Source: Helianthus annuus
Taxonomy: Eukaryota > Streptophyta > Magnoliopsida > Asterales > Asteraceae
DNA length: 64,000 nucleotides
Reading direction: 5' to 3'
Assembly: GCF_002127325.2 (NCBI RefSeq)
Contig: NC_035438.2
Coordinates: 147,139,207-147,203,206 of the forward strand
In this document: in pieces, positions 5,986-63,995 of the stretch
How positions within the stretch are numbered: the stretch's first letter is position 1
Layout: every line of letters begins with the position of its first letter
The notes under the pieces: generated by a model
What the model saw: the letters and a program-made list of their open reading frames with translations, nothing else
Databases searched by the model: none
What the model was told of the DNA's origin: nothing
Translations under genes and position numbers: made by a program

Positions 5986-7935
5986 TCAACGGGGTGTCAC
6001 ATCATCCCCCCGTTGGTTTGGAATTTCGTCCTGAAATTCGGTTGTAGCTTCAGTGCTGGGGGTTTCATTTGGGAACAACTGGGGATACTTGCACTTCATC
6101 TGGTCTTCCCGCTCCCAGGTAAACTCTGGGCCACATCGCGAGTTCCAACGAACTTGCACGAGAGGTATCTGGCTACGTTTGAGGGTTTTGATCTCTCGAT
6201 CCGTGATCTCAATCGGTTCCTCAGTAAAGTGTAGCTGTTCATCAATAGTGAGTTCCTTAAAGGGAATGATGAGTGTTTCATCTGACAGACACTTCTTCAG
6301 ATTAGACACGTGAAAGACGTTGTGCACCGCACTCAGCTCTTCAGGCAGATTCAATCTATGCGCAACCCTACCGATTTTCTCAGTAATTTCGAATGGTCCA
6401 ACATATCGCGGATTAAGCTTGCCCCGTTTACCAAAACGAACCACACCCTTCCAGGGTGAGACTTTAAGTAGAACCCGGTCCCCGACCTGGAATTCTAGCG
6501 GTTTCCTACGCTTATCAGCGTAACTTTTCTGACGGTCACGAGCTGCCGCCATGCGTTGTCTGATCTGGGCAATCTTTTCCGTTGTGTTTACCACTAATTC
6601 CGGGCCTGTGACCTGGCTGTCACCAACTTCCGCCCAGCAAAGTGGTGATCGGCATTTACGACCGTACAATGCCTCAAAGGGTGCTGCCTGAATGCTGGTG
6701 TGGTAGCTGTTATTGTAGGAGAATTCCACTAGCGGTAGATGCTTCTCCCAATTCTTGCCAAAATCGATCACACATGCCCTAAGCATGTCTTCCAGGGTTT
6801 GGATGGTGCGTTCCGACTGCCCATCCGTTTGTGGGTGATAAGCGGTGCTCATGTCCAAACGCGAGCCAAAGGATTTGTGCATAGCTTGCCACAACTCAGA
6901 AGTAAAACGTGCGTCCCGATCGGAAATAATGGAGGTTGGCACCCCGTGCCTCGAAACCACTTCTTTTAAGTAAACATCTGCCAAGGTAGAAAACTTGTCT
7001 GTTTCTTTAATAGCCAAAAAGTGTGCAGATTTAGTTAATCGGTCTACTATCACCCAGATAGTGTCGTTTCCGCGTTGGGATCTAGGTAGGCCAGTGACGA
7101 AATCCATGGAAATTTGCTCCCATTTCCATTTCGGGATTCTTGGTTGTTGGAGTAGGCCCGCTGGTTTCTGATACTCAGTCTTGACTCTCGCGCAAGTCAA
7201 ACATTTGCTGACATATGTTTCTATGTGGGCTTTCATGCCAGGCCACCAATATGTGGTCCTTACGTCGTGGTACATCTTATCCGAACCAGGATGTACTGAG
7301 TAACGGGACTTATGGGCTTCATCCATCACAAGTTCACGTAGACTTCCATAGAGTGGAACCTAAATGCGCCCTGTCACATAGTAAGCGCCATCTTCTTTTT
7401 GATCTATTCGCTGCCTCGATCCTCGCAGGGACTCAGCCCTGATGTTCTCTGGTTTCAGTGCTTCAACCTGAGCATTTCGAATCTGAGTAGGGAGGTTAGA
7501 CTGGATGGTAAGTTGTAGCGCTCTCACGCGCTTGGGCGTAGTGTCTTTTCGGCTGAGGGCGTCTGCCACGACATTGGCCTTGCCCGGATGGTACTTGATT
7601 GCGCATTCGTAATCATTCAAGAGTTCGACCCATCGACGTTGTCGCGTGTTTAATTCCTTTTGCTTGAAGATATGCTCGAGACTCCTGTGATCGGTGTAAA
7701 TAGTGCACTTGGTACCGTACAGGTAATGTCTCCATATCTTAAGAGCAAAAACCACTGCTCCCAGTTCCAAGTTGTGCGTAGTGTAGTTCCTTTCGTGAGT
7801 CTTAAGTTATCGAGAAGCGTAGGCAATAACCTTCTCGCGTTGCATCAACACGCAACCGAGCCCATGAATAGACGCATCACAGTAGACCGCAAAGTCGTCG
7901 GTACCTTCAAGTAACGAGAGAATAGGAGCACTACA
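5986..7935 (-). pseudogene. TE-B pol 3' part: RNase H end, integrase
   Basis: Downstream part of TE-B pol. From 7935 leftward: RNase H ([13 protein letters not shown], then [10 protein letters not shown] and YTDHRSLEH), integrase zinc-binding region ([10 protein letters not shown] and KCLTCARVK), catalytic core with [15 protein letters not shown] and GQSERT (Asp, Asp, Glu), GPF module, then a chromodomain-like tail ([18 protein letters not shown]). The last residues overlap the inner purine tract and end at 5986. Stops occur at about 7807 (Gln to TAA after YASR) and at about 7361. The 447-codon integrase block 5986-7329 is otherwise open. It was separated from the upstream half by TE-C. Originally it would integrate cDNA in the nucleus. 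Confidence 0.9.
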
Positions 7936-10377
7936 TGTAACGCCCTGCTTTTTCATACTTTCCATAATTAGAAAGCTCGCCTTGTAATGCTATTTTTGGA
8001 AATCTTGTATTATTGTAGTCGTCTTTTCGTTGTAAAATCCAAGACTCGGATCATAAATAAAATTCGTATTTCTTTAAATTCACCATCTACATATTCATAC
8101 ATGTTCATACGTTCGAATTCATTGTACATCGAATCCTTATTTGTAATTCATACTTATACGATACTTATTCACGATGCATGTCCATGCTTATCCTTAAATT
8201 GTTGATACCTAGAAACCCCTAATAATATGCTTATTTATACAACGGTTAATCATCTAATATGTGACATATACTTGTCACTTACAAACATGTTACATACTTG
8301 TACATTACACTTTTTACCTAGTTAAATCATGTTTTATTTCATATTTTACCTTGTTACAAGTTAGGGGAAACATTGTTGCATATTATTACACAACTTCATT
8401 AACAAAATTACTCGTTATAATGTTTTAAAAATAAAAAAATAAAGAAATATGGCAGCCCCAATTCAGCAAAATTCAGCCCCATATAGTTGGGTTTTGTGGG
8501 CTAGTTTCAAGGTGTAACCCCTTCTAAACACTTCCAAAGCCCAACCCATTGAAACCCTAATCCTTCTCCCTATAAATACCACTTATAACCAGCCTCCCTA
8601 CCACTTTTGCAACACTAAAAACTCTCAAAACATCCTCCAAACCGTAGCTGAAAGCAAGGGTTCGAGCAGATTGACACCCCTTCACGAAAATGAGCATAAC
8701 TCAATCAATTCTTATCCGATTCACTCGATTCTTTTTCCTACTACTTTGTATTGACCTTATCTACGTTTCCATGGGTTTTTCACAGTAAATAAGTCCCTGG
8801 AATGTCCCCAAATAGGCTCCAAAGTGGGCTGTTCGTTTCTGTTTTTATCTAAACTTTGTTAAACTCATCCAACTTGAGTCTATCTCATCTCAAACCTATG
8901 TCCTAATGCTTACAACCTCACTTATGGTTGGTTAAGCTTAAAAACAAGGTTGAGACACTATAAATCAGAGGTTAAAACCTCAAATACTTTCTGTTTTGTT
9001 AGGGTATTTAACCCACAAATCATGTCAAGCTTAGATCTTGATGAATGAGTGATTATGGAACAACTTGGGTTGTTCTACATACAATCCTCACATGATTTGG
9101 TGATTTCTCTGTAGTTAGGTTGTTTATGTTATTGTGCTAAACCTAGTTCGTGACCCTTCTTGGTTGTTTTTACATCAAGTGAAGTGGTGAACATTCAAGG
9201 GGTTCCTAAATGGAAGCATGTTCTTCCTACCCCATACATGACATCTATGATAACACGAGGTGCCTAAATGAAGATCCTAATCTTCTACCTCATACTTGAA
9301 TTATTGGACTAAATAATATGTAGTACTTAACCTAGATATATATATACGCTCATTCGAACCTTTGATGTTGAACTTGTGTTTATATGTTAAAGTAGTAGAA
9401 CATCACCTAAGACCTAAACTTTGTTGTGATTCTTATGGGTGTTCAACTCATGAAAACATTATCATAACCCTTGTGGTTACCAAGTGTCATACAAGTGTTA
9501 AGTGTTGAAGATGATTATTTTCACATGCTATTCTCATATCTTACTTTTATGTTGTTTTAAATACCGAATCTCGACTCTAAGCATACTTGAACTTTAACCC
9601 TACACATTCAATCTTCTAACCTCATCAACTCGTCAATAATTGGATAATTGGAAAGCATATGCAAACTTTGTGAGTATACTCGTATTTCCCCTTTTTTTAC
9701 TTTTACCACTTTTGGGGTATAACATGTTTACTTATCAAAAACTTACACATGAACATTTTGCTTAAACACATGAACATTCCTATAACATGCTTGTATACGT
9801 GATGGCTTGATACTTTAAACTTGGGTGAAACTTATGTGTTGAATTTATCATTAACTTCGTACGAGCCAAACCGTGACATATGTAGCGCTATAGGATTAAC
9901 GACCCGCCCTTTATCATCGGTAATGTCATGAGCATATTGCGTTTTCTTGGTTTGATATGTTAGACACATGCCATGTTTAAATGTTTATCTTGAATCACAT
10001 GCTTGCTATGAGGAATTGTTTAAAACTTATATTTTGTTATGTACGTACCAAACTTGTATACTCGCCTTTGCTTTTGCATTGAATTGTATTTTAAACATGT
10101 TACAGGTTGATGATGACGATGCCATGGAAAGAAGTAGCGTTGATGCCTAGATACACACATAGACGTTTAGGTTTAATATGTCGTATCAATTTTGCTTATG
10201 TTATCATGTATTTCTTTTGAAGTTGTTGTTACTTGAGTTTATGTAATGTTGACAACTGAAAGTTATGAAATGAAATGGGAATTATTTAATTATCGTCACA
10301 AATAGTGTTATGATGTCTCGAGCTATCTTCACACTTCGTCTCATCCCGATGTTTCCGCCATTGGTTGGGGTGTGACA
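7936..10377 (+). repeat. TE-C 5' LTR
   Basis: 2,442 bp, TGTAACGCCC to GGGTGTGACA, with TATAAATA at 8571-8578. Nearly identical to the 3' LTR except for a 297-bp segment (8818-9114) missing from that copy. No coding sequence seen. Confidence 0.95.
8571..8578 (+). promoter_or_regulatory. TATA box of TE-C 5' LTR
   Basis: TATAAATACC about 635 bp into the LTR. The same box occurs at 14260-14267 in the 3' LTR and at 61610-61617 in TE-G, so it is conserved between copies. Confidence 0.7.
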
Positions 10378-10380
10378 GAT

Positions 10381-10393
10381 TGGTATCAGAGCC
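10381..10393 (+). other. TE-C primer-binding site
   Basis: TGGTATCAGAGCC, an exact complement of the plant initiator tRNA-Met 3' end, three bases after the LTR. It primes minus-strand DNA synthesis. Confidence 0.95.
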
Positions 10394-10731
10394 ATAACTA
10401 TAGGGAATTAGGAAAAGTAGGAATGCTTTAGCCTAGTCTATAGTTTTAGAGCCTTATTCTTATGTTTTACTTGAAACTACTTGCATGCTACCTTATTTGC
10501 TCTTATTCATTCTCTTTTGATCTTTTAAGCATATATGGCGCTTATGTGTTAACACTTGACATGCTATACTTGCTTTATTATGTGCTAATACATGTTTTAT
10601 TGTCCCACTCATTATGTGCTATTCTTAATATGCTTCATTGTGCGTTTATATTTGTTGTTTATTCCTTTAACATACTCTTTCCCTCATGCATTTTACTCGA
10701 CTATTCTAAATCCGTAAACACTCGAGACGAA

Positions 10732-11467
10732 TTCACCAAAATAGGCGTGAAACCCACAATTTGGTGAACGACTCACAATCTACCTATTCTTCTTTTTACA
10801 CGAGATATCGCCATTAAGCTAGGAGTGAAATCCACATCTTAATGGTAAATCTCAAATTTCAAATTCTAGTGGACCCTCGTCAACATGTCGAAATTAAATT
10901 TTGACCCGACGAGTACCAACCACACTTAGGATACGAAATCGTCAAGTTAGGGGTGAAACCTGCACCTTGGCGACTAGTTCCACTCCTTGATATTTTTTTT
11001 AATCCCGCCAAGTCTCGAAATTTCGATTGATTTGGGACATGTAGTAACCGGAAGGGTAAATACCGTTAACCGACTTGTAGGCAAGAGTATTTTACCTATT
11101 AGGCCAAAGCATGCTCCTCAAATTCAAAAGACTTTTCGACCACTTTGGTTAGTCAAAGTTCCGTTTTGGAACCATCCAAATTTTGATCAAACATGTGTTT
11201 CTATTATTTATTTATACGATGCAATCTTTCAAACTCGAGTTTACTTTCGATTTCTTTTTTCACACGCACAACATATCGAACCTTTTCCATACATTTATAT
11301 ATATGCATGATTTCATATAATTTAAATTCGTATTCCTTGTAACGACGACTGGAGACATATCATTAAGATTGGAGTGATTTCCTTACCTTGACGATTAACT
11401 CCACTCCCCTTTTCTTAAAAAAAACGACCTCACCAACGAGTTAGGGGTGATTCCCTTACCTAGGTGA
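10732..11467 (+). ncRNA. Array of 19-nt-loop hairpins, candidate RNA element
   Basis: Five hairpin-like units share a 19-nt loop of the form NtaggNGTGAaayCcacaN while their stems differ. Unit 1: TTCACCAAA/TTTGGTGAA (10732-10740, 10760-10768). Unit 2: CCATTAAG/CTTAATGG (10811-10818, 10838-10845). Unit 3: TCGTCAAG/CTTGGCGA (10939-10946, 10966-10973, one G-U pair). Unit 4: TCATTAAG/CTTGACGA (11360-11367, 11387-11394, one mismatch). Unit 5 is imperfect (11430-11440, 11460-11467). Units 1 and 2 recur in TE-G. The position downstream of the primer-binding site would suit a packaging or dimerisation signal; that role is inference. Confidence 0.6.
10876..10913 (+). ncRNA. Long hairpin with compensatory changes
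   Basis: Outer arms CTCGTC (10876-10881) and GACGAG (10908-10913) enclose a second complementary pair GTCGAAATT / AATTTTGAC. In TE-G the outer arms are CTTGTC and GACAAG (63958-63963, 63990-63995): both sides changed and pairing is preserved. The inner arm also changed to restore pairing. Confidence 0.55.
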
Positions 11468-12823
11468 TCGCTACCAAAACGCCTCTTCAAAATATCTTAT
11501 TATGCAAACTCGATCATATTTTATACCCAAATTGTTTATCATTATTCAAAATACCCACTCATACCGATTTCAAAATACATTGTTTTATCAAACGTACTTC
11601 TTATTCTACAATCTATTTTCACTCAACTCATATACACGAGATTCTTAATCATATCTTAAAACGTCTTATTACTCGAACTCCAAAACCTTACGAAATGCCA
11701 CCTATCAATTAACTCGGTCCAACGAAACTCTTGCCCATGAACTTCATATTCGACTTAATCACTAAAACTTGCTCACATTATATCGTCATACTAGAGACTT
11801 CCATTCTTAATTGAAACCAAACCAACCTTTCTCAATTACTTATAGGATCTTATAGATATTATGAGATCGTTTTACCAAAGAATATTTCCAACATCAACGA
11901 ACCATTTGTCAAAACCCTTTAAAATGAACACTAAGACCTTTGATAAATCCCTTTTCCAAGGATCAACGTATTCAAAAAAACTCCAAAATTTCTTGTTTTG
12001 ATGAAACGAACTTACTTTTTCGAAGACCTTTTCCTACACCTATTTTCCAAAACATGTGGGCAAGAAGACTTCATAGGGACCGACCATTTTTTTCGGATTA
12101 CGTAAACCCTTTTAAACAAAATTAGCATTTCTATTTGTTACAAAATACGTTATGCATAACCAACGAGTACTTTATGTTCCTTTACATATACAAACTATAT
12201 TCTACCTTTCAAACCAAGCTCAATCTAATTTTGATTCGACAAACTCAACGTTTTGTTTAAACAACTATACATGCACATCATCATACACATTTTAGTCGAT
12301 ATCTCGCGACAACATCATTTATATCGTTCGTATCTACATACTTAACCTTTTTTTCCGCAATGTCTCAACGTACACTATATACGCAATATTTATTATTCAT
12401 ACCTACACCTATGTTCATACGTTTATGTTTGTACTTATACACATACTACTTACACGTTTATGTTTATGCTCATACATACATGCGTATTCATACTTAAACT
12501 TATGCTCATACTTTCATCCATACTCATGATTCATACATTCGTACCAATACGCGAGGGTAATCCAAGAGATTTGCTTGCGTGGGTCCCATACATACTTAAG
12601 CATGGAATTGCTTACATACTATATTCTTATACGTACACATTCTTATTCTTTTTATGTATACCCTGATTCATACACAACTAGTACAAGCTATGCAGATCAT
12701 GCGACGATCAAAATAATCGCGGGTGCACACGGGATTATAGTGATAGGCGTATGAGAACCATAGAGTGTACTACAGTGTATGGTAAGACACGGAACGTAAC
12801 CTGACACCGAATACGAGACAGGC

Positions 12824-12891
12824 GTGACATGGTCAAAACATGGTGGATACGCCGCTGGTACTTCCTATATATAAGTGTTTCACCATGTTAC
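12824..12891 (+). ncRNA. Conserved cassette between complementary arms
   Basis: The core GGTGGATACGCCGCTGGTAC followed by TTCCTATAT is flanked by imperfect complementary arms (12824-12839 and 12877-12891, with ACATGGT/ACCATGT perfect). The same core with different, mutually complementary arms lies in LTR-H (22468-22542) and in both TE-F LTRs, always in the sense orientation of the host element. Confidence 0.6.
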
Positions 12892-13588
12892 CAAACCGTC
12901 GTAAAACGTGCCACGAGAAATTCAGTGTTTTGCAGACCCTTTGACCTAATACAAACTTTAAATAACTCACAAACGCATTATATCCGATTATCCATGACGA
13001 GACTTCATCTTTAACACGCTACTTTCATCATATACTTGCATTCATTTAGTGTCAATTGTTCACCCCATACTCCTATTATTCTCCATTATCCTTTCTTTCA
13101 TATGAACCCCGTTCGCAATCAAGCTTGTTTAAACATTCAAATCCTAACTTATCTCATTACCTTTAAAACCGTCTTCCTATTCTCTTTTCTTATGTAAATG
13201 TACTTAGTATACCTTTAACAAATCTTTTCGTTACTCTCAATAAACAATTTTTACGAAAATGTGATTTTTATACTATCCTTTAGACTCCCCATGCAAACTA
13301 CCACACTTTTCATCGAAATACTAAACGCATTATACGAAAGTTATACTTCTTGGATATCATATTTTAAAGATACCTCTCCATTCTGGGACATTCAAACTTA
13401 TTTAAACTCCTTTGCCTATGCGCACGCATACACGTTTTACCTATGCTTAAATGCCTCAACTCATTTTAGTCAAACAAATTCCTATCCTATCGTTCTTCAA
13501 AATTTCGTACTTTTCTAAACGTTTCAAAACTCCCAAGTCTCGATTCTTTTAGCCAAAATGCTTTTTCTCCAAGGTCTTCCTCTTGAAT

Positions 13589-13624
13589 AAATTTCGGGAC
13601 GAAATTTCCTAAAGGAGGGGAGAC
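13589..13624 (+). other. TE-C GGA hairpin and polypurine tract
   Basis: AAATTTCG-GGA-CGAAATTT (13589-13607), then the purine-rich AAAGGAGGGGAGAC ending at the 3' LTR start. Plus-strand DNA synthesis primes here. The hairpin is shared by all gypsy families in the window whose 3' end is visible. Confidence 0.85.
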
Positions 13625-15790
13625 TGTAACGCCCTGCTTTTTCATACTTTCCATAATTAGAAAGCTCGCCTTGTAATGCTATTTTTGGAAATCTTGTATT
13701 ATTGTAGTCGTCTTTTCGTTGTAAAATCCGAGACTTGGATCATAAATAAAATTCGTATTTCTTTAAATTCACCATCTACATATTCATACATGTTCATACG
13801 TTCGAATTCATTGTACATCGAATCCTTATTTGTAATTCATACTTATACGATACTTATTCACGATGCCTGTCCATGCTTATCCTTAAATTGTTGATACCTA
13901 GAAACCCCTAATAATATGCTTATTTATACAACGGTTAATCATCTAATATGTGACATATACTTGTCACTTACAAACATGTTACATACTTGTACATTACACT
14001 TTTTACCTAGTTAAATCATGTTTTATTTCATATTTTACCTTGTTACAAGTTAGGGGAAACATTGTTGCATATTATTACACAACTTCATTAACAAAATTAC
14101 TCGTTATAATGTTTTAAAAATAAAAAAATAAAGAAATATGGCAGCCCCAATTCAGCAAAATTCAGCCCCATATAGTTGGGTTTTGTGGGCTAGTTTCAAG
14201 GTGTAACCCCTTCTAAACACTTCCAAAGCCCAACCCATTGAAACCCTAATCCTTCCCCCTATAAATACCACTTATAACCAGCCTCCCTACCACTTTTGCA
14301 ACACTAAAAACTCTCAAAACATCCTCCAAACCGTAGCTGAAAGCAAGGGTTCGAGCAGATTGACACCCCTTCACGAAAATGAGCATAACTCAATCAATTC
14401 TTATCCGATTCACTCGATTCTTTTTCTACTACTTTGTATTGACCTTATCTACGTTTCCATGGGTTTTTCACAGTAAATAAGTCCCTGGAATGTCCGATTC
14501 ACTCGATTCTTTTTCCTACTACTTTGTTAGGTTGTTTATGTTATTGTGCTAAACCTAGTTCGTGACCCTCCTTGGTTGTTTTTACATCAAGTGAAGTGGT
14601 GAACATTCAAGGGGTTCCTAAATGGAAGCATGTTCTTCCTACCCCGTACATGACATCTATGATAACACGAGGTGCCTAAATGAAGATCCTAATCTTCTAC
14701 CTCCTACTTGAATTATTGGACTAAATAATATGTAGTACTTAACCTAGATATATATATACGCTCATTCGAACCTTTGATGTTGAACTTGTGTTTATATATT
14801 AAAGTAGTAGAACATCACCTAAGACCTAAACTTTGTTGTGATTCTTATGGGTGTTCAACTCATGAAAACATTATCATAACCCTTGTGGTTACCAAGTGTC
14901 ATACAAGTGTTAAGTGTTGAAGATGATTATTTTCACATGCTATTCTCATATCTTACTTTTATGTTGTTTTAAATACCGAATCTCGACTCTAAGCATACTT
15001 GAACTTTAACCCTACACATTCAATCTTCTAACCTCATCAACTCGTCAATAATTGGATAATTGGAAAGCATATGCAAACTTTGTGAGTATACTCGTATTTC
15101 CCCTTTTTTTTACTTTTACCACTTTTGGGGTATAACATGTTTACTTATCAAAAACTTACACATGAACATTTTGCTTAAACACATGAACATTCCTATAACA
15201 TGCTTGTATACGTGATGGCTTGATACTTTAAACTTGGGTGAAACTTATGTGTTGAATTTATCATTAACTTCGTACGAGCCAAACCGTGACATATGTAGCG
15301 CTATAGGATTAACGACCCGCCCTTTATCATCGGTAATGTCATGAGCATATTGCGTTTTCTTGGTTTGATATGTTAGACACATGCCATGTTTAAATGTTTA
15401 TCTTGAATCACATGCTTGCTATGAGGAATTGTTTAAAACTTATATTTTGTTATGTACGTACCAAACTTGTATACTCGCCTTTGCTTTTGCATTGAATTGT
15501 ATTTTAAACATGTTACAGGTTGATGATGACGATGCCATGGAAAGAAGTAGCGTTGATGCCTAGATACACACATAGACGTTTAGGTTTAATATGTCGTATC
15601 AATTTTGCTTATGTTATCATGTATTTCTTTTGAAGTTGTTGTTACTTGAGTTTATGTAATGTTGACAATTGAAAGTTATGAAATGAAATGGGAATTATTT
15701 AATTATCGTCACAAATAGTGTTATGATGTCTCGAGCAATCTTCACACTTCGTCTCATCCCGATGTTTCCGCCATTGGTTGGGGTGTGACA
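13625..15790 (+). repeat. TE-C 3' LTR with internal deletion
   Basis: 2,166 bp and nearly identical to 7936-10377. At 14494 it jumps from the equivalent of 8817 to the equivalent of 9115, and about 32 bp of upstream LTR sequence (14405-14437) is copied into the gap (14494-14526). TATA box at 14260-14267. No coding sequence seen. Confidence 0.93.
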
Positions 15791-18299
15791 CTACAGAGGT
15801 TATCCTTCAGATTCTGAAATGCGGACTCCTGAGCTTCATTCCATTTGTAAGCCATGCCCTTTTGGGTGAGAGCCGTGAAGGGCTGAGCAATCTTCGAAAA
15901 TCCTTTGATAAATCTACGATAGTATCCTGCCAATCCCAAGAATTGGCGAATTTCGGTCGGAGTTTTAGCTGTAGGCCAGTTCTTTACAGAGTCGATCTTA
16001 GTTGGGTCGACGTGAATTCCGTCCTTGTTGACCACGTGCCCAAGGAAATGGACTTCTCGAAGCCAGAAGTCACATTTCGAGAACTTGGCGTACAGTTGTT
16101 CATTGCGAAGGAGTTCGAGAATAAGACGCAGGTGTTGTTCATGCTCCTCTTGGCTTTTCGAGTATATCAGGATGTCGTCAATAAACACAATTACGAATTT
16201 GTCGAGGTAAGGCTTGCATACTCGGTTCATGAGATCCATGAAAACCGCAGGTGCGTTAGTCATTCCAAAGGGCATGACAAGGAATTCGTAATGTCCATAA
16301 CGAGTTCTGAACGCAATCTTGGAGATGTCTTCATTACGGACTCTTAGCTGATGATAACCTGATCGTAGGTTAATCTTAGAGTAGTAGCTCGATCCTTGCA
16401 ACTGATCGAATAGGTCGTTAATACGTGGGAGAGGGTAGCGATTCTTGATGGTAACCTTGTTCAGCTCACGCTAGTCGATGCACATTCAGAATGTGCCATC
16501 CTTCTTCTTAACAAAGAGCACTGGTGCTCCCCAGGGTGACGAACTAGGACGGATAAATCCTTTATCCAATAGTTCCTGTAGTTGCGTAGAGAGTTCCTTC
16601 AGTTCTGCGGGGGCTAGTCGATAGGGCGCACGAGCTATAGGTGCTGCTCCGGGAGCTAGCTCGATTTGGAATTCGACCTGACGGTGGGGAGGGAGTCCAG
16701 GCAGTTCTTCAGGAAATACCTAGGGGTAGTCGCGTACCACTGGAAAATCTTCAATCCTCTTTTCCTTCTCCTGTGTGTTGGTGACAAGTGCTAAGATAGC
16801 GGTGTGCCCCTTTCGTAAACACTTCTAGGCTTTTAAGAACGAGATGATGCCCGTGACCTCTCCGCCTTTGTCACCTTGAATGATGAGGGGTTTGCCAGAA
16901 CAGCGGGGGATGCGAACCTTTTTCTCTTGACAGAGGATTTCAGCGCGATGTTTGGATAACCAATCCATACCGATGACGACGTCGAAGCTTCCAAGAACGA
17001 TAGAGAAAAGATCGATGTTATAGGTCTGTCTAGACAGTACTAGTTTGCAGTTGCTGATAACATGTGAGGCCTCGATGTTTCTACCATTAGCTAACTCGAC
17101 GATATACTTAGAACTTAGTATCGTAGGCGGGTGCTTAAGCTTCTTACTAATACGTAGGGATACATAACTAGCATCGGCTCCAGAATCAAATAATATGGAA
17201 ACATAACGATCATCGAGTAGGAACTTACCCGCCACGACGTTGGGGTCATTCCTTGCTTCTCCAGCTCCAATCACAAAAGCCCTTCCTCTTGCACCATTCC
17301 CGGCATTGTTGTTTTGATCGTTGTTTCCAGCTCCCTGATTGTTGTTGCGGTTCTGGTTCAGTTCAGGGCAATTCCTCTTAATGTGTCCCTCAGCTCCACA
17401 CTGGAAACATCCCTTGACATTCCCATGATGTTGCTGCTACTGTTGCTGGTTCTGCCCCGTGGGACGTGGACTCCTACAGTCCTTGGCCTCATGCCCCATC
17501 TTGCTACATCGCTGACACTGACCTTTCCCACAAGGCCCGCTGTGGTGCCGGTTGCACTTGTTGCACTTGGGGTGGTTTCCGCGATAGCCACCTTGTTGTT
17601 GAGGGCCCTTGTTGTTTTCAGTTTTCCTTTGCTGGGTTGGAGCCTGAGTGGGGTTAGCATCCTTGCTTTGATTTCCTTCCCACTTACGCTTGTTGTCACT
17701 AGAAGTTCCAGCAGTAGCACTGATCCTTTTGGGCAACTTGCCCTGTTCCACAGCCTGATCAGTGAGTTTGTGAGCAAGACGAACAACTGGCTGAATGGTA
17801 TTGAGGTTGGCTACGGTTACATGGCTCCGGATTTCCGGGGCCAAACCCTTGATGTACAATTGGATCCTTCGATACATAGGTCGAGACATGTTTGGGCAAA
17901 GAGCAGCATAGTCGTTGGACTGTTTGGTGTATGCCTCGATCTCTGATCCAACCATCTTGAGCTCAAAGTACTCGTTTTCGAGCTTGTGGATGTCATCCCT
18001 GTGACAATACTCTTCCTTAATCATGTCCTTGAAATCTTCCCACGCAGTAGCATTAGCAGTTTCCAAACCAAAAATCTGAATTTGCGCCTTCCACCAGGAA
18101 AGCGCGTTCCCTTCGAGCGTACCAGTAGCAAACTTCACCCAATTCGCAGGGGGACACTCACAGACAGCAAAGACGGCTTCGACTTTCTCAATCCAGTGTA
18201 GGAGACCTATGGCACCCTCAGTGCCATTGAAAGGGAGAGGCTTGCAATCCATAAAGGTTTTGAAGGTACAAACATGTGGTTGCGCAGGCGCGTGCTGAC
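15791..18299 (-). pseudogene. TE-B gag exon 2, protease, reverse transcriptase
   Basis: Upstream half of the TE-B polyprotein, read leftward from the acceptor at 18299. It holds the gag domain ([18 protein letters not shown]), zinc knuckle [14 protein letters not shown], protease with LFDSGAD (about 17190), and RT with [10 protein letters not shown] (about 16165) and SPWGAPVLF (about 16530). Nonsense codons lie at about 16480 (two, around MCID), about 16722, about 16828 and in the inter-knuckle Gln-rich stretch near 17438. The frame is interrupted at 15791 by TE-C. Non-functional; an intact homologue is TE-E. Confidence 0.9.
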
Positions 18300-23924: not shown

Positions 23925-24692
23925 GTAGAGGTTCCTGTAAAAAAAAGTTTTTTTTTTGTGAGAAAGGTAAGAAAGATTCTACACCATTAGATCAAACTAA
24001 TGGTTGAGATCATAATGGCAAAATTGTAAATAATGTTTACTATTAAACATGTTAATTTTTTAGATTAAGGGTATATAGGTAAATTTAACATTTTTAAATT
24101 AAGAAACTAACATTAATGCACATGTAATTTCCCTTCGTCTTTTTTAAACGTCAATAACTAACTTTTTATACGTAACTTTTAAAAAAAATTACACCGTAAT
24201 AACAACGAGCGTTTTTTTATGTTTAATATGAGTACCATATTGCTATACATATATTGAGAAAAAATATGTTTCGATCAGATGTTTAGTCATTTAGTCCGTG
24301 AATGGTGTTATATACTTATTGAATTGTGTTATATACTTACTGAATGGTGTTATATACTTGCTGAATTGTGTTATATACTTGTTGAGTGGTGTTATATACT
24401 TACTGAATGGTGTTATATACTTGCTGAATGGTGTTATATACTTACTGAATGGTGTTATATACTTGTTGAATGGGGTTATATACTTGCTGAATGGTGTTTA
24501 TAGAGATCTTTAAAAAAAATCCAGTTCCTATAATTAAGGTGGCGGTTATGAGAAGTTTTTAATTAATTGAATTAATGATAAAATTACTTATTTACCCTTT
24601 TGAATTAATTTAGATTTAGGACACATGTCATTTCCACAATATTTCTCACCTTTCTCACACTTTTAACTTTTTTTACAATAACCTTACCCATT
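23925..24692. mobile_element. Second foldback element with internal minisatellite
   Basis: Imperfect terminal inverted repeats of about 50 bp: left AGGTAGAGGTTCCTGTAAAA through GTGAGAAAGGTAAG; right, in complement, GGGTAAGGTTATTGTAAAA through GTGAGAAAGGTGAG. Similar AATTAC bases lie outside both ends. It carries the 21-bp minisatellite. No transposase. Superfamily unknown. Confidence 0.6.
24298..24500. repeat. 21-bp minisatellite
   Basis: About nine tandem copies of a unit like GAATGGTGTTATATACTTGC plus one base. Because 21 is a multiple of three, two overlapping frames stay open (heptapeptide repeats). I do not consider them genes. Confidence 0.92.
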
Positions 24693-33071: not shown

Positions 33072-35322
33072 TGTCACACCCCCAAAATCCACATGCGGAA
33101 CACCACCGCTTGGAGGCGTGACCGACCAGGATCCAGCCACTAATCATACTGAGCATTGATTTAATAATAGACACTATTCAAAGTAGTTAGCAACATCGCA
33201 GTTTAAGTTCGATGATTAGTTTAACAAAACAGCGGAAGCAAAAACCAAATAGTTTTAAAGATAGTTCTTAGTTCAAGATAGTTAAACCCAACACACGGGT
33301 TTTGACGAACACTACACATCCCCAAGCAGCAGCTCCACAGTCACTGATTACCTGCAAAGCATGCAGTAAGGGGTCAACAATAATGCTGAGTGAGTTCACT
33401 AGATGTCCAGTTTTAGTTTACCAAAAGCTTAAGTTATTTAGATAAAGCATTTAAAACCACGTTGTGGGGAGCTACCCCAACTGTAAGCTCACTAAACTGT
33501 AGATACCGAAACTGTTGACGGAATGTTATTGTGCCCCGAGTCAATGTCTATCGTCATTGACCATGTTGCAAGGTCTACTAGTTCACGCCCGATCTCCCCC
33601 GGTCACGGTGTGAGGTTGTCAAACCTAATAGCGCTATCAACTAATAACCCGTTCGCCCCCGGCGATTAATCGGTACTGTAAGCAGGGACTTAAAGTGATA
33701 GAGTTTCGTTTAGCATGGCTAGTCGTGATTTATAAATAATATCCAAACGTATCTCCCCCGGAGATAGTAATTACCCATTCTGTTTTCCCCCGGAGTAATG
33801 GGTCAACAGTGTTTTTCCCAAAGTTGGTAGTTTGTTCGTGTCCCTCCGCGGGACGCATGCTTTTAGTGTGTGAACTCACCTTGGGTTGCTCGGCAGATTA
33901 GGTTACTTGTCAAACACGTTGGTCACCACGTCCTAACATGGTTACCGGTATAGGTCAGGTTTGGTGTACAAGTAATCACGTAAAAATCTACACTTAACTA
34001 ACACGTAGCACGCATGAAATCAGACAGTGGGTTATTGGGCCGGCCTTAACATTTACACAATCAAACAGTAACACGTAGATCAGTCAACAGGTAGCCCATA
34101 TTAAACACATTATGGCCCAATAACCAAAGTGGACAGCCCAGTCGCAACCAGGTGGTCCCGAGTCGCAACCAGGAGGTCTCGGCTTGTCACGCTGTGGTTG
34201 CGAGTCGCAACTGTGTGGTCTCGAGTTGTCACGCTGTGGTTGCGAGTCGCACCCGTCGTAGTCTCGAGTCGCAACCGTTGCGGTTTCGAGTTGTCACGCT
34301 ATGGTTGCGAGTCGCAACCGTGTGGTCTCGAGTCGCAATGCTGTCCTTTTCTTGTTCACGTGTTGATGCTGATTTAACAGTCAAATGATGTAATGCACAG
34401 ACCCATATCAGGAAACAACCAATAGGGTCTAACTAACAACTTACCCAAACTATCTATTAATCAAAAATGGATCAAATCCTAAGGGTTTTCCTATCTTTAA
34501 CTATTATTCAATCATGTTCATCCCAAGTTCATCTTTTTAGGGTTTTCTCATTCACACAAAGTAATTATAAACATGCATTTTATGAGTCCCAACACATGTT
34601 TTAACAAGATCATTATGCAAGAAAGCAAAAGAAACATACTTTTGTAACATCAAGCATGAATTTGGTTGATTTATCATTCCTAAAATATCATTCTTTAGCC
34701 ATTTTGAATCATGTTATCAAATGTTATCACATAATGATTTACACATATCATTAAACCCACAAATCACTTCAAAGATCATGCATAACATTTCTAACCCTCA
34801 TCTTTCTAGCATTCAAAGTAGGCATCATAGTTCATATATCATTTAGTAAATCTCAAAACTAACCGGTTTGTGAAAAAGGCACCGAATAGAAGGAAGAAAC
34901 CTAGAGTTAAAGTATCCGAGTAATGATGATGAACTTGGCCGAGTTTCCTTGTGAGATCCGAGCTTGAACCGAAAGTTGGAAGAGATGGGATGTTGTTGAA
35001 GGTTTTCTAGTGAGAGAGAATAGAAGGAGTGTGGATATGTTTGTGTAACAAATGAGGGAAGTGGGGAAATGTTGGAGATTATATACCAAGTATCAAATAG
35101 GCTAAGGGGGTTTCGGCCCAAACCGGTTACGGCCCACTCGAGACCGAGTGGCCCACTCGCAACCGAGCGGTTGCGAGTCATGGTCTCGACTCACATACAC
35201 ATATATACATATATATATATATATATAACACATATCATACAAAAGTCACGTTTCCATTTAATAGCATATATATGCACAAAGATATTACAAGGTGTTCGTT
35301 CAGAAAAACCTAGAGTGTCACA
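33072..35322 (-). repeat. TE-E 3' LTR
   Basis: 2,251 bp, sense TGTGACACTC to GGGTGTGACA. Related to the TE-B LTR at both ends and over the central region (TAATCGGTACTGTAAGCAGG), but a distinct subfamily. TATA-like TATATAAT on the minus strand at 35079-35086. No genes. Confidence 0.95.
34141..34340. repeat. 21-bp minisatellite in TE-E LTR
   Basis: Nine to ten units of about 21 bp alternating GTCGCAACCGTGTGGTCTCGA and GTTGTCACGCTGTGGTTGCG types. Copied at 41393-41592 in the other LTR. Overlapping heptapeptide frames through it are not genes. Confidence 0.92.
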
Positions 35323-35570: not shown

Positions 35571-38500
35571 TTAGCTACGTTTGAGGGTTTTGATCTCTCG
35601 ATCCGTGATCTCAATCGGTTCCTCAGTAAAGTGTAGCTGTTCATCGATAGTGAGTTCCTTGAAGGGAATTATGAGTGTTTCATCTGACAGACACTTCTTC
35701 AGATTAGACACGTGAAAGACATTGTGCACTGCACTCAGCTCTGCAGGCAGGTTCAATCTATAAGCAACCTTACCGATTTTCTCGGTAATTTCGAATGGTC
35801 CAACATATCGCGGGTTCAGCTTGCCCCGTTTACCGAAACGAACCACACCCTTCCAGGGTGAGACTTTAAGTAGAACCCGGTCCCCGACCTGGAATTCTAG
35901 CGGTTTCCTACGCTTATCAGCGTAGCTTTTCTGGCGGTCACGAGCTGCCGCCATGCGTTGTCTGATCTGGGTAATCTTTTCTGTCGTATCCACCACCAGT
36001 TCTGGGCCTGTGATTTGACTGTCACCGACTTCCGCCCAGCAAAGAGGTGATCGGCATTTACGACCGTACAATGCCTCAAAAGGTGCTGCCTGAATGCTAG
36101 TGTGGTAGCTGTTGTTGTAGGAGAATTCCACCAGCGGTAGATGCTTCTCCCAGTTCTTGCCAAAATCGATCACACATGCCCTAAGCATGTCTTCCAGGGT
36201 TTGGATGGTGCGTTCAGACTGCCCATCCGTTTGTGGGTGGTAAGCGGTGCTCATGTCCAAACGTGAGCCAAAGGATTTGTGCATAGCTTGCCACAACTCG
36301 GAAGTAAAACGAGCGTCTCGGTCGGAAATAATAGAAGTTGGCACCCCGTGTCTCGAGACTACTTCCTTTAAATAGATTTCTGCCAAGGTAGAAAACTTGT
36401 CTGTTTCCTTAATGGCCAGAAAGTGTGCAGACTTAGTCAATCGATCTACTATCACCCAAATAGTGTCATTCCCGCGTTGGGATCTAGGTAGCCCCGTAAC
36501 AAAATCCATGGAAATTTGTTCCCATTTCCACTTCGGGATTTCTGGTTGCTGGAGTAGGCCTGCTGGTTTCTGATGCTCAGTCTTGACTCTTGCGCAGGTC
36601 AAACATTTGCTAACGTATGCTGCTATGTGGGCCTTCGTGCCAGGCCACCAGTAAGTGGTCCTTAAGTCGTGGTACATCTTATCTGAACCAGGATGTACTG
36701 AATAACGAGACTTATGGGCTTCGTCCATCACAAGCTCTCGTAGATCTCCGTAAAGTGGGACCCAAATGCGCCCTGCCACATAGTAGGCGCCGTCTTCTTT
36801 TTGCTCTAGTCGTTGTCTCGATCCTCGCAGGGACTCAGCCCTGATGTTTTCCGGTTTCAGAGCTTCAGTCTGAGCATTTCGGATCTGGGTAGGGAGATTA
36901 GACTGGATGGTAAGTTGTAACGCTCGCACGCGCTTGGGCGTAGTGTCTTTTCGGCTGAGGGCGTCTGCCACGACATTGGCCCTGCCCGGATGGTACTTGA
37001 TGGCGCATTCATAATCATTCAGGAGTTCGACCCATCGACGTTGTCGCATGTTTAATTCCTTTTGCTTGAAGATATGCTCGAGACTCCTGTGATCGGTGTA
37101 AATGGTGCACTTGGTACCGTACAGGTAATGTCTCCATATCTTAAGCGCAAAGATCACTGCTCCTAGTTCCAAGTCGTGCGTAGTATAGTTCCTTTCGTGC
37201 GTCTTAAGTTGTCGAGAGGCGTAAGCAATAACTTTGTCGCGTTGCATTAACACACAACCGAGCCCATGGATGGATGCATCGCAGTAAACCACAAAGTCGT
37301 CAGTGCCTTCAGGCAACGAGAGAATGGGAGCACTACAGAGGTTATCCTTTAGTTTCTGAAATGCGGTTTCCTGAGCTTCACCCCATTTGTAAACCATACC
37401 CTTCTGAGTAAGAGCCGTGAGAGGCTGAGCAAGCTTTGAGAATCCCATGATAAATCTTCGATAGTACCCTGCTAGTCCCAAGAATTGGCGGACTTCGGTC
37501 GGAGTCTTAGGGGTAGGCCAATTCTTTATAGAGTCGATCTTTGCAGGGTCGACGTGAATTCCATCCTTGTTAACCACGTGCCCAAGGAAATGGACTTCTC
37601 GAAGCCAGAAGTCGCATTTCGAGAACTTGGCATACAGTTGCTCATTGCGAAGGAGTTCGAGGATAAGGCGTAGGTGCTGTTCATGCTCTTCTTGACTTTT
37701 CGAGTAGATCAGGATGTCGTCTATAAACACGCTCACAAATTTGTCGAGGTAAGGTTTCCACACTCGGTTCATGAGATCCATGAATACCGCGGGCGCGTTG
37801 GTCATTCCAAAGGGCATAACAAGGAATTCATAATGGCCATAACGAGTTCTGAATGCAGTTTTGGAGATGTCTTCATTACGGACTCTTAGCTGATGATAGC
37901 CCGATCGTAAGTCGATCTTAGAGTAGTAGCTCGATCCTTGCAACTGATCGAATAGGTCGTCGATTCGCGGGAGAGGGTAACGATTCTTGACGGTAACCTT
38001 GTTCAGCTCACGATAGTCAATGCACATTCGGAACGTGCCATCCTTCTTCTTAACAAAGAGTACCGGTGCTCCCCAGGGTGATGAACTAGGGCGGATAAAC
38101 CCTTTATCCAATAGTTCCTGTAGTTGAGTGGAGAGTTCCTTTAATTCTGCGGGGGCTAGTCGATAAGGCGCACGAGCTATATGCGCTGCTCCGGGAGCTA
38201 GCTCGATTTGGAATTCGACCTGACGGTGGGGAGGGAGTCCAGGTAATTCTTCAGGAAATACCTCGGGGTAGTCACGCACTACTGGAAAATCTTCAATCCT
38301 CTTTTCCTTTTCCTGCGTGTTGGTGACAAGTGCTAAGATAGCGGTGTGCCCTTTTTGTAAACACTTCTGGGCCTTCAAGAATGAGATAACGCCGGAGATT
38401 TCTCCGCCCTTGCCACCTTGTACAATGAGGGGTTTGCCAGAACGGCGGGGAATACAAACTGCTTTCTCTTGACAGAGGATCTCCGCGCGATGCTTGGATA

Positions 38501-40027
38501 ACCAATCCATGCCGATAACGACGTCGAAGCTTCCAAGTGTAACAGGGAAAAGATCGATACTAAATGTCTGACCGGACAATTCTAGCTTGCAACCTTTGAT
38601 AACATGTGAGGCCTCGATGTTTCTACCATTAGCTAACTCGACGATATGGTGTGAACTTAGTAACGAAAGCGGACGCTTAAGCTTCTTACTAATACGTAGG
38701 GACACATAACTAGCATCGGCTCCAGAATCAAATAATACAGAAACATAACGATCATCGAGTAGGAACTTACCCGCCACGACATTGGGGTCATTCCTTGCTT
38801 CTCCAGCTCCAATCACAAAAGCCCTTCCTCTAGCACCATTCCCAGCGTTGTTGTTCTGATCGTTGTTTCCAGCTCCCTGATTGTTGTTGCGGTTTTGGTT
38901 CAGTTCAGGGCAATTCTTCTTAAAGTGCCCCTCAGCTCCGCACTGGAAACAACCCTTAGCATTCCCGTGATGTTGTGGCTGCTGGTTCTGCCCCACGGGG
39001 CGTGGACTCCTACAGTCCTTGGCCTCATGCCCCATCTTGTCACATCGCTGACACTGACTTTTCCCACAAGGCCCACTGTGATGCCGATTGCACTTGTTGC
39101 ACTTGGGGTGGTTACCGCGATAGCCACCCTGTTGTTGAGTGCCCTTGTTGTTTTCAGTTTTCCTTTGCTGTGCTGGGGCCTGAGTGGGGTTAGCATCCTT
39201 GCTTTGATTCCCTTCCCACTTACGCTTGTTGTCACTAGAAGACCCGACAGTAGCACTGATCCTTTTGGGCAACCTGCCCTCTTCTACGGCCTGATCAGTG
39301 AGTTTGTGAGCAAGTCGAACGATCGGCTGAATGGTAGTGAGGATGGCTGAAGTTACATGGCTTCCAATTTCTGGAGCCAAACCCTTGACGTACAATTCGA
39401 TTCTTCGATACATAGGTCGGGACATGTTTGGGCAAAGAGCAGCATAGTCATTGGACAGCTTGGTGTAGGTTTCAATCTCTGACCCAACCATCTTAAGCGC
39501 ATAGTACTCGTTTTCAAGTTTGTGGATGTCATCTCGGTGACAGTACTCCTCCTTAATCATGTCCTTGAAATCCTCCCACGCAGTAGCATTAGCAGTTTCC
39601 AAACCAAACATCTGAATTTGCGCCTTCCACCAGGAAAGCGCGTTTCCTTCAAGCGTAGCAGTAGCAAACTTCACCCAATTCGCAGGGGGACACTCACAGA
39701 CAGCAAAGACAGCTTCAACTTTCTCAATCCAATGCAGAAGACCTATGGCACCCTTAGTGCCGTTGAAAGGGAGAGGCTTGCAATCCATGAAAGTTTTGAA
39801 AGTACACACGGGTGGTTGCGCAGGTGCATGCTGACCTGTTCGAGAGAAGCGAAGCGTATCGATTTAGGGATAAAAGACAATGTGGCGGTAGGATCTAAAC
39901 ATCCTAGGGTAACGAGTTTACCTCCAGGGTGAGCTGCGAAAGCTGCAGCCACCGTGTTAAGCAGGTTAGTGAATTGAGCCTGAGTCATGTTGATGTTTCC
40001 TCTTCCACGTCCACTCATTGTCTTCAT
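35571..40027 (-). CDS. TE-E gag-pol polyprotein, two exons
   Basis: Proposed exons 39922-40027 and 35571-39835; intron 39836-39921. Splicing gives about 1,456 residues; exon 2 alone is open for 1,412 codons from 39809, which is a GTG, not a start. In that numbering: gag domain 1-150, zinc knuckles C253-C266 and C287-C300, protease D361-S-G, RT FIDD 695-698, RNase H D844/E881/D906/D949, integrase zinc site around H1032-C1072, core D1102, D1163, E1199 (D-D-35-E spacing), GPF near 1337. All catalytic residues are present. A TAA at 35571 replaces the Gln codon found in TE-B and removes about 65 residues of chromodomain-like tail. The family packages its RNA, copies it to DNA and integrates it. 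Probably still competent enzymatically; targeting may be impaired. Confidence 0.88.
39836..39921 (-). other. TE-E gag intron (predicted)
   Basis: 86 nt, donor GGAG|GTAAAC, acceptor CGAACAG|GTCAGC. Retention gives a 94-residue product ending at 39743; removal restores the full polyprotein. Homologous position in TE-B and TE-D. Confidence 0.72.
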
Positions 40028-63813: not shown

Positions 63814-63995
63814 TTCACCAAAATAGGCGTGAAACCCACAATTTGGTGAACGACGCTCAATCTATATATTCTTCTTTTTACACGAGATATCGCCATTAAG
63901 CTAGGAGTGAAATCCACATCTTAATGGTAAATCTCAAATTTTAAATTCTAGTGGACCCTTGTCAACATGTCGAAACTAAATTTCGACCCGACAAG
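63814..63995 (+). ncRNA. TE-G copies of the 19-nt-loop hairpins
   Basis: Unit 1 arms 63814-63822 and 63842-63850; unit 2 arms 63893-63900 and 63920-63927, both with 19-nt loops identical to TE-C. The long hairpin at 63958-63995 has compensated outer arms CTTGTC/GACAAG. Confidence 0.6.

Follow-up and report, generated by a model that had tools for sequence, protein, structure and literature searches.

The window, by which we mean the whole 64,000-nucleotide stretch of DNA analysed here, contains a young LTR retrotransposon nested inside another element. Its 5′ and 3′ LTRs are 99.4% identical over two aligned blocks in a self-alignment, and an array of hairpin units lies in its leader. The features are as follows:

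7931-7935 and 15791-15795: TSD CTACA, flanking the 5′ LTR and the 3′ LTR
7936..10377, + strand: 5′ LTR (sequence; self-alignment to the 3′ LTR)
10381..10392, + strand: primer-binding site (PBS) TGGTATCAGAGC (sequence)
10396-10403 and 10438-10445, + strand: PBS-adjacent stem AACTATAG/CTATAGTT (RNAalifold on 10 leaders)
10732..10768, + strand: unit 1, arms TTCACCAAA/TTTGGTGAA, in relatives TTTACCAAA/TTTGGTAAA (covariance model, RNAalifold)
10810..10846, + strand: unit 2, arms GCCATTAAG/CTTAATGGT, inner stem GGA/TCC (covariance model, ViennaRNA, RNAalifold)
10876..10913, + strand: extra hairpin CTCGTC/GACGAG, without a GUGA core (RNAalifold)
10938..10974, + strand: unit 3, arms TCGTCAAG/CTTGGCGA, inner stem GGG/CCT (covariance model, RNAalifold)
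11054..11096, + strand: extra stem GGGTAAATACC/GAGTATTTTACC (RNAalifold; two-sided changes, also unpaired cells)
11359..11395, + strand: unit 4, a late unit, loop GUGAUU (covariance model, ViennaRNA)
11432..11468, + strand: unit 5, a weak late unit, core GGGGTGATTCCC (core match, 29.0 bits)
13611..13622, + strand: polypurine tract (PPT) AAAGGAGGGGAG (sequence)
13625..15790, + strand: 3′ LTR (self-alignment, sequence)
63814..63928, + strand: second element copy with units 1 and 2, truncated at the window end (covariance model match)

We take the PBS to be of the initiator Met tRNA type. The earlier note had described the element as devoid of protein-coding capacity, and zero ORFs of at least 150 aa were indeed found in the internal region (10378-13624). 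With two LTRs, a PBS, a PPT and an internal region without coding capacity, the element has the make-up of a LARD. Its PPT/LTR junction has 5,484 matches in the genome (≤2 mismatches). Two arrays of a 21-bp tandem repeat elsewhere in the window (24299-24502 and 34140-34338) bear no relation to the hairpin units.

Four clear units and one weak unit had been proposed downstream of the PBS, and this description holds. All five lie on the + strand and start at least 351 nt 3′ of the PBS at 10381. The core GGNGTGAWWYCY occurs seven times in the window, compared with 0.48 expected from dinucleotide shuffles (largest 3), and these seven are the five leader units and two cores in the second copy (63826 and 63904). 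A covariance model built from 13 units, with units 1-4 in the training set and unit 5 outside it, scored units 1 to 5 at 55.3, 52.6, 49.2, 46.1 and 29.0 bits, and its only matches in the whole window at E values up to 1 were the seven units and, on the reverse strand, the images of four of them.

The constant part of each unit is 19 nt long, as had been claimed, but it is not an open loop. It consists of 3 nt, GGN, GUGANN, N′CC and 4 nt, and the unit is better read as a predicted outer stem, an internal loop (3 nt on the 5′ side and usually 4 nt on the 3′ side), a 3-bp inner stem GGN/N′CC and a hexaloop GUGANN. The third inner pair N/N′ covaries, being A-T, G-C or T-A in 51 of 66 representative units, and the middle pair of unit 3 is changed on both sides in two relatives (L050 and L061; GGG/CCC to GAG/CTC in the RNAalifold alignment). 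In unit 1 of the window N/N′ is C-C, and ViennaRNA and RNAalifold close the tip otherwise (GG.GT...AC CC). A GTG/CAC inner pairing was considered in place of GGN/N′CC and rejected, as the 3′ bases vary and CAC is not kept (by eye), whereas GGN/N′CC covaries. The outer stems range from 4 bp in some units to 13 bp, where scoring stopped. A second unit class, in which the 3′ side has 6 nt and one arm is TCGAGA-like, forms the first unit of many gag-bearing families.

The claim that each stem pairs with its own partner stood for most of the array, where the arms differ between units and are compensated. ViennaRNA folding in the leader context gave outer-stem probabilities mostly of at least 0.8 for units 1, 2 and 4, the stem of unit 4 carrying one mismatch and one G-U. 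Unit 3 folds less firmly (outer pairs 0.54-0.87, the end pair excepted; inner stem 0.37). The claim does not extend to unit 5, whose standard hairpin was not formed in the window leader (outer pair probabilities ≤0.1). By eye, TCACC and GGTGA, the arms of unit 5, could pair around an internal loop that is asymmetric.

Hairpin structure in the leader and selection on its pairing are supported by comparison among units. Of the pair cells in the training alignment (13 rows), 91.7% were standard; column shuffles gave 80.1%, and slid versions gave 54.5% or less. The count of further pair types, one of the five measures taken, was not above shuffles (14 compared with 15.3). A larger set of 379 units (194 distinct, from 93 sources including the window), which includes a few chance matches on the strand without the PBS, was reduced to the 66 representatives. 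Inner pair 18-25 and outer pair 9-35 ranked first and second in covariation among all column pairs of these representatives, and by corrected mutual information ranks 1, 2 and 4 went to expected pairs, although several column pairs outside the stems scored high as well.

We then compared the covariation with a tree null, in which substitutions were re-dealt on a FastTree tree in 400 replicates. The units were sorted into two classes solely by the two final bases of the 5′ arm. Class A (89 units after thinning of 169) scored 5.45 over the 14 pairs counted, compared with a null of 2.01 (sd 0.48, maximum 3.35), and was reached in 0/400 replicates. Class B (21 units of 25) scored 3.55 compared with 1.89 and was reached in 2/400, with five misplaced rows left among its 21: four of the unit 5 type (L004, L061, L099 and L103) and one chance match (L049). 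Slid controls of the ten outer pairs of class A scored 1.73 for a slide of +1 (reached in 20/400) and 2.18 for a slide of −1 (reached in 3/400); therefore, the tree null leaves some relatedness uncorrected. The true class A register lay well above both slid controls. Most single pairs were nominally significant at best.

One pair of unit 2 could be followed genome-wide, where T-A occurs 1,700 times, C-G 82 times, T.G 7 times and CxA 13 times, three of the CxA cases lying within a single array, at intervals of 6.5 kb. The double change is far above the expectation from independent single changes, a figure for which few events may account, and wobble was not enriched among the single-change intermediates. 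Unguided RNAalifold folding of ten leaders recovered units 1-3, the PBS-adjacent stem and two more stems with two-sided changes. In leader A2, the loop core was conserved at 0.91-0.94 compared with 0.75 elsewhere, and it was not the most conserved stretch, as 43-71 of 402 windows scored higher. The reading of conserved loops on complementary stems as selected RNA structure is thus upheld by covariation above the tree null in both classes and by the unguided folding. The units are also not copies of one MITE with shared arms, since their arms differ between units, pair with their own partners and are compensated. They may nonetheless be descendants of an old duplicated module.

Other structures accompany the units in the leader. 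The PBS-adjacent stem was invariant among the 10 leaders aligned, so it offers no covariation there. By eye, GGTTATAG/CTATAACC-like arms also follow the PBS of three other families in the window (40299, 47989 and, on the − strand, 57553), and TATAG/CTATA-like arms directly 3′ of the PBS are common to all four families. Judged from sequence, the PBS-adjacent arms may be an older and wider feature than the GUGA units. In relatives, the hairpin at 10876..10913 is changed on both sides, to CTTGTC/GACAAG or to CTCATC/GATGAG. Most aligned families have, 3′ of unit 3 at about 11003-11018, a conserved motif that looks unpaired, (C/T)CGCCAA(A)GT(C/T). A 10-nt complementarity between leader CCAAGTCTCG (11008-11017) and U3 (13729-13738) was considered as a candidate for 5′-3′ circularisation and rejected as chance, because it is not kept in five relatives (L069, L097, L048, L072 and L103); other perfect leader-U3 matches of 9 to 11 nt (at least 9 nt required) sit elsewhere.

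The units belong to a very abundant family. In the one genome counted (3,010,006,569 bases in 334 contigs), the pattern of PBS and downstream leader has 15,350 sites (≤3 mismatches) and its reversed control 0, and the loop pattern (≤1 mismatch) has 13,511 matches compared with 165 for its reversed control. The leader pattern had 0 matches in viral and prokaryotic contig collections, which is uninformative on other plants. For closer study, 60 loci were drawn from 100 listed PBS sites, all within the first 33 Mb of contig C1 and hence not genome-wide random; 20 were chosen for having no strict loop match listed nearby, and 40 were others. A strict core pattern found at least one core within 1,300 nt 3′ of the PBS in 58 of the 60 loci; the two without were L051, with one distant match at 2,450, and L096. 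The prediction that units would lie downstream of the PBS in many elements was thus borne out in 58/60 sampled copies of the PBS family within the same genome. A second scanner, with a slightly looser core and stems required, misses most unit 5 copies and found at least one unit in 59 of 60 loci, L051 having none and L084 and L096 one each, the latter possibly by chance. This scanner counted 199 units on the sense strand up to 1,400 nt from the PBS, compared with 3 antisense matches over the whole loci, and the first units start about 180-450 nt 3′ of the PBS. Both the 58/60 scan and the covariation sets presuppose the core, so the invariance of GTGA in such counts is by construction; regex-free support comes from RNAalifold and from k-mer counts, in which GTGAAACCC occurs in 16 of 21 diverged leaders and the loop core is among the top motifs.

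The earlier note had tied the units to a non-coding element. This applies to the element in the window, but the units are not special to it, as copies with gag usually carry three. A tblastn search with three Gag fragments (L066, L069 and L057; self-matches included; weakest match 48 bits) found gag sequence, not necessarily an intact gene, in 29 of the 60 loci; since 40 of the loci extend for just 1.6 kb, a late-starting gag can be missed. In 25 of the 29 gag-bearing loci there were exactly three units in the first 900 nt and no late unit; in the remaining four, the counts of early plus late units were 1+1 (in two), 2+0 and 3+1. Of the 31 loci without detected gag, 26 had late units (900-1,400 nt), compared with 3 of 29 with gag. 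Among those 26, the 3+1 layout was seen in 17 loci, 3+2 and 2+1 in four each, and 4+2 in one, and the other five loci without detected gag had 0+0, 1+0 (two) and 3+0 (two).

Copies of both kinds can be related by their size and ends. By listed PBS and PPT positions, the internal region is about 5.6 kb in L001, L069 and L097 and about 3.1-3.4 kb in nine window-type copies (L048, L072, L075, L081, L086, L090, L098, L102 and L103). L069 and L097 combine gag sequence with the window-type PPT/LTR junction without mismatch, and they are plausible candidate helpers for the window-type copies. L066 encodes Retrotrans_gag and zf-CCHC domains, and its pol piece keeps an RT-RNase H-integrase frame open for 764 aa. 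One or two CCHC motifs were present in 14 of 20 loci scanned (L047-L066). L107 has RT, RNase H, integrase zinc-binding and Tf2-1-like SH3 domains, with rve below the cut-off and no chromodomain match at 1e-3. We infer that the unit carriers form a large chromovirus-like LTR retrotransposon superfamily, with Tekay as its putative lineage name. A chromovirus-like relative in the window (35571-39809), which is 68% identical in pol over 733 residues, has a leader of roughly 0.5 kb without units; therefore, the units are not required in the wider lineage. Simple hairpin scans found no GUGA units in the leaders at 40.3, 48.0 and 57.6 kb.

These observations bear on what the units might do. Three kept hairpins with compensated stems, together with extra ones where gag would begin, argue for a function used by the RNA itself. 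Since cis signals are all that a non-coding copy requires, a role in packaging, dimerisation or reverse transcription is favoured over one in the translation of gag. We consider it somewhat probable that the units are docking sites for Gag and that the array is a packaging or dimerisation signal used in trans by non-coding copies. Recognition by Gag appears to be the best reading because it explains the position, the repetition and the fixed loop, and the packaging or Gag-binding hypothesis of the earlier note is strengthened by how the units are laid out in gag-bearing copies and in those lacking gag. Gag as the binder and packaging as the outcome are both inferred.

In the putative mechanism, an outer stem of free sequence would present the internal loop, the inner stem and the GUGANN hexaloop of each hairpin, and each hairpin would dock the Gag of the element through its capsid and CCHC zinc knuckles. 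The array of three hairpins and the PBS-adjacent stem would together form the packaging or dimerisation signal of the genomic RNA. Non-coding copies, which retain the array, would be packaged by Gag from coding relatives, and one or two extra units might, speculatively, give them competitive help. A bolder version, which we put forward tentatively and rather doubt, is a modular packaging code in which three GUGA-hexaloop hairpins recruit Gag, with satellites having won thousands of copies through the array and its extra units in a dosage arms race.

It is unlikely, in our judgement, that the hairpins bind a host RNA-binding protein for export, stability or granule targeting and do not act in packaging directly. 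A conserved hexaloop on free stems would suit any loop-reading protein, and copies with and without gag would both need such binding. However, we know of no host protein partner for these hairpins, and three units before gag with extra units in its absence fit the dosage of an element-coded protein at least equally well. We regard it as distinctly improbable that the structures control gag translation, through reinitiation, shunting or internal entry, and are simply inherited in non-coding copies. The units do lie within a leader of roughly 1 kb ahead of gag in gag copies, but copies without detected gag keep both the units and their compensated stems (unit 2 of L048 compared with that of the window element) and carry extra units where gag would start. 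A role in primer placement, strand transfer or 5′-3′ circularisation would suit the conserved stem directly 3′ of the PBS; it seems very improbable for the units, of which the first lie about 180-450 nt from the PBS, and the sole leader-U3 complementarity seen in the window element is lost in the five relatives. Finally, units 3 and 4 resemble an old duplication (by alignment; the 3′ flank, reached in 49/500 shuffles, is weak), but, given the compensation in the stems, the covariation of the inner stem and the consensus folds obtained de novo, it is scarcely credible that the units are decayed copies of a single duplicated module, or a protein site acting at the DNA level, with their RNA pairing under no selection. 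Most flank comparisons between units did not exceed shuffled sequence, and the overlap of neighbouring windows inflates some whole-window flank scores.

A signal for Gag would have parallels in known systems. Retroviral psi consists of several stem-loops between the PBS and gag that are bound by nucleocapsid zinc knuckles. The array resembles it in its position, its several stem-loops and the CCHC-bearing Gag of its carriers; like packaging signals of the retroviral type it is a structured cis element between the PBS and gag, as judged from sequence and covariation. In contrast to psi, the array has three to five near-identical copies of one motif and a putative function, and we claim no sequence relation between the two. 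The 5′ region of yeast Ty1 holds sequences for dimerisation and packaging, according to the accessible text of PMC5454406, and shares its 5′ location with the array. However, Ty1 is described with kissing loops, and by eye GUGANN is not self-complementary.

Among plant elements, Tekay chromoviruses share Ty3-type gag and pol and high abundance (15,350 PBS-family sites here) with the unit carriers. The Ty3-type Gag with its CCHC knuckle is present in relatives such as L066, and the window element itself is without gag. Tekay is the largest sunflower clade in the accessible parts of PMC11728184 and PMC9784723, which also give Tekay group 2 an additional 5′ ORF of about 400 aa; here, of the two longest stop-free stretches listed for each locus, none was an ORF of that size ahead of gag. 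Leader hairpins are not mentioned for Tekay in the accessible parts of PMC11728184 ("hairpin", 0 occurrences) or PMC9784723. LARDs are LTR elements whose internal region lacks proteins and for which mobilisation in trans is assumed, and the closest published claim that we found is that LARDs and TRIMs specify conserved RNA secondary structures (both from the accessible part of PMC7215508). The window element, compared by architecture, shares LTRs, an internal region without proteins and assumed trans-mobilisation with the LARDs of grasses, whereas what we describe is a defined repeated hairpin with covariation, located in the leader and common to gag-bearing relatives.

A search of Rfam with 7900-15800 gave no match above the gathering score and four sub-threshold matches, none on the units. 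Full-text searches on packaging signals, hairpins and leaders of plant retrotransposons, in a collection with few subscription papers, yielded retroviral studies, reviews and surveys of elements, among which no such array was found described; this does not prove novelty. In the accessible text on BARE (PMC3735527), packaging signal, DIS, stem-loop and hairpin have 0 occurrences as whole words. The accessible part of a review (PMC12786077) treats packaging via capping, decay factors and granules and names no RNA signal, with 0 occurrences of hairpin, stem-loop, secondary structure and dimeri-. Little seems to be known of how particles select the RNA of plant LTR retrotransposons or of how protein-less copies are mobilised. 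A short, repeated and covarying hairpin that occurs thousands of times in one genome provides a defined RNA for tests with a defined protein, and the units could serve as a structural marker that shows on which coding elements particular non-coding ones depend.

Two further arrangements of PBS sites were noted on contig C1. Four PBS sites lie in a row at steps of about 5.4 kb (C1:27557548-27573822), which suggests tandem LTR-internal-LTR arrays of the non-coding element. Separately, the PBS and the start of the leader are repeated two to four times at steps of about 85 bp at C1:1327144-1327341, 1332709-1332991, 6651395-6651591, 6656488-6656599 and 31653313-31653506.
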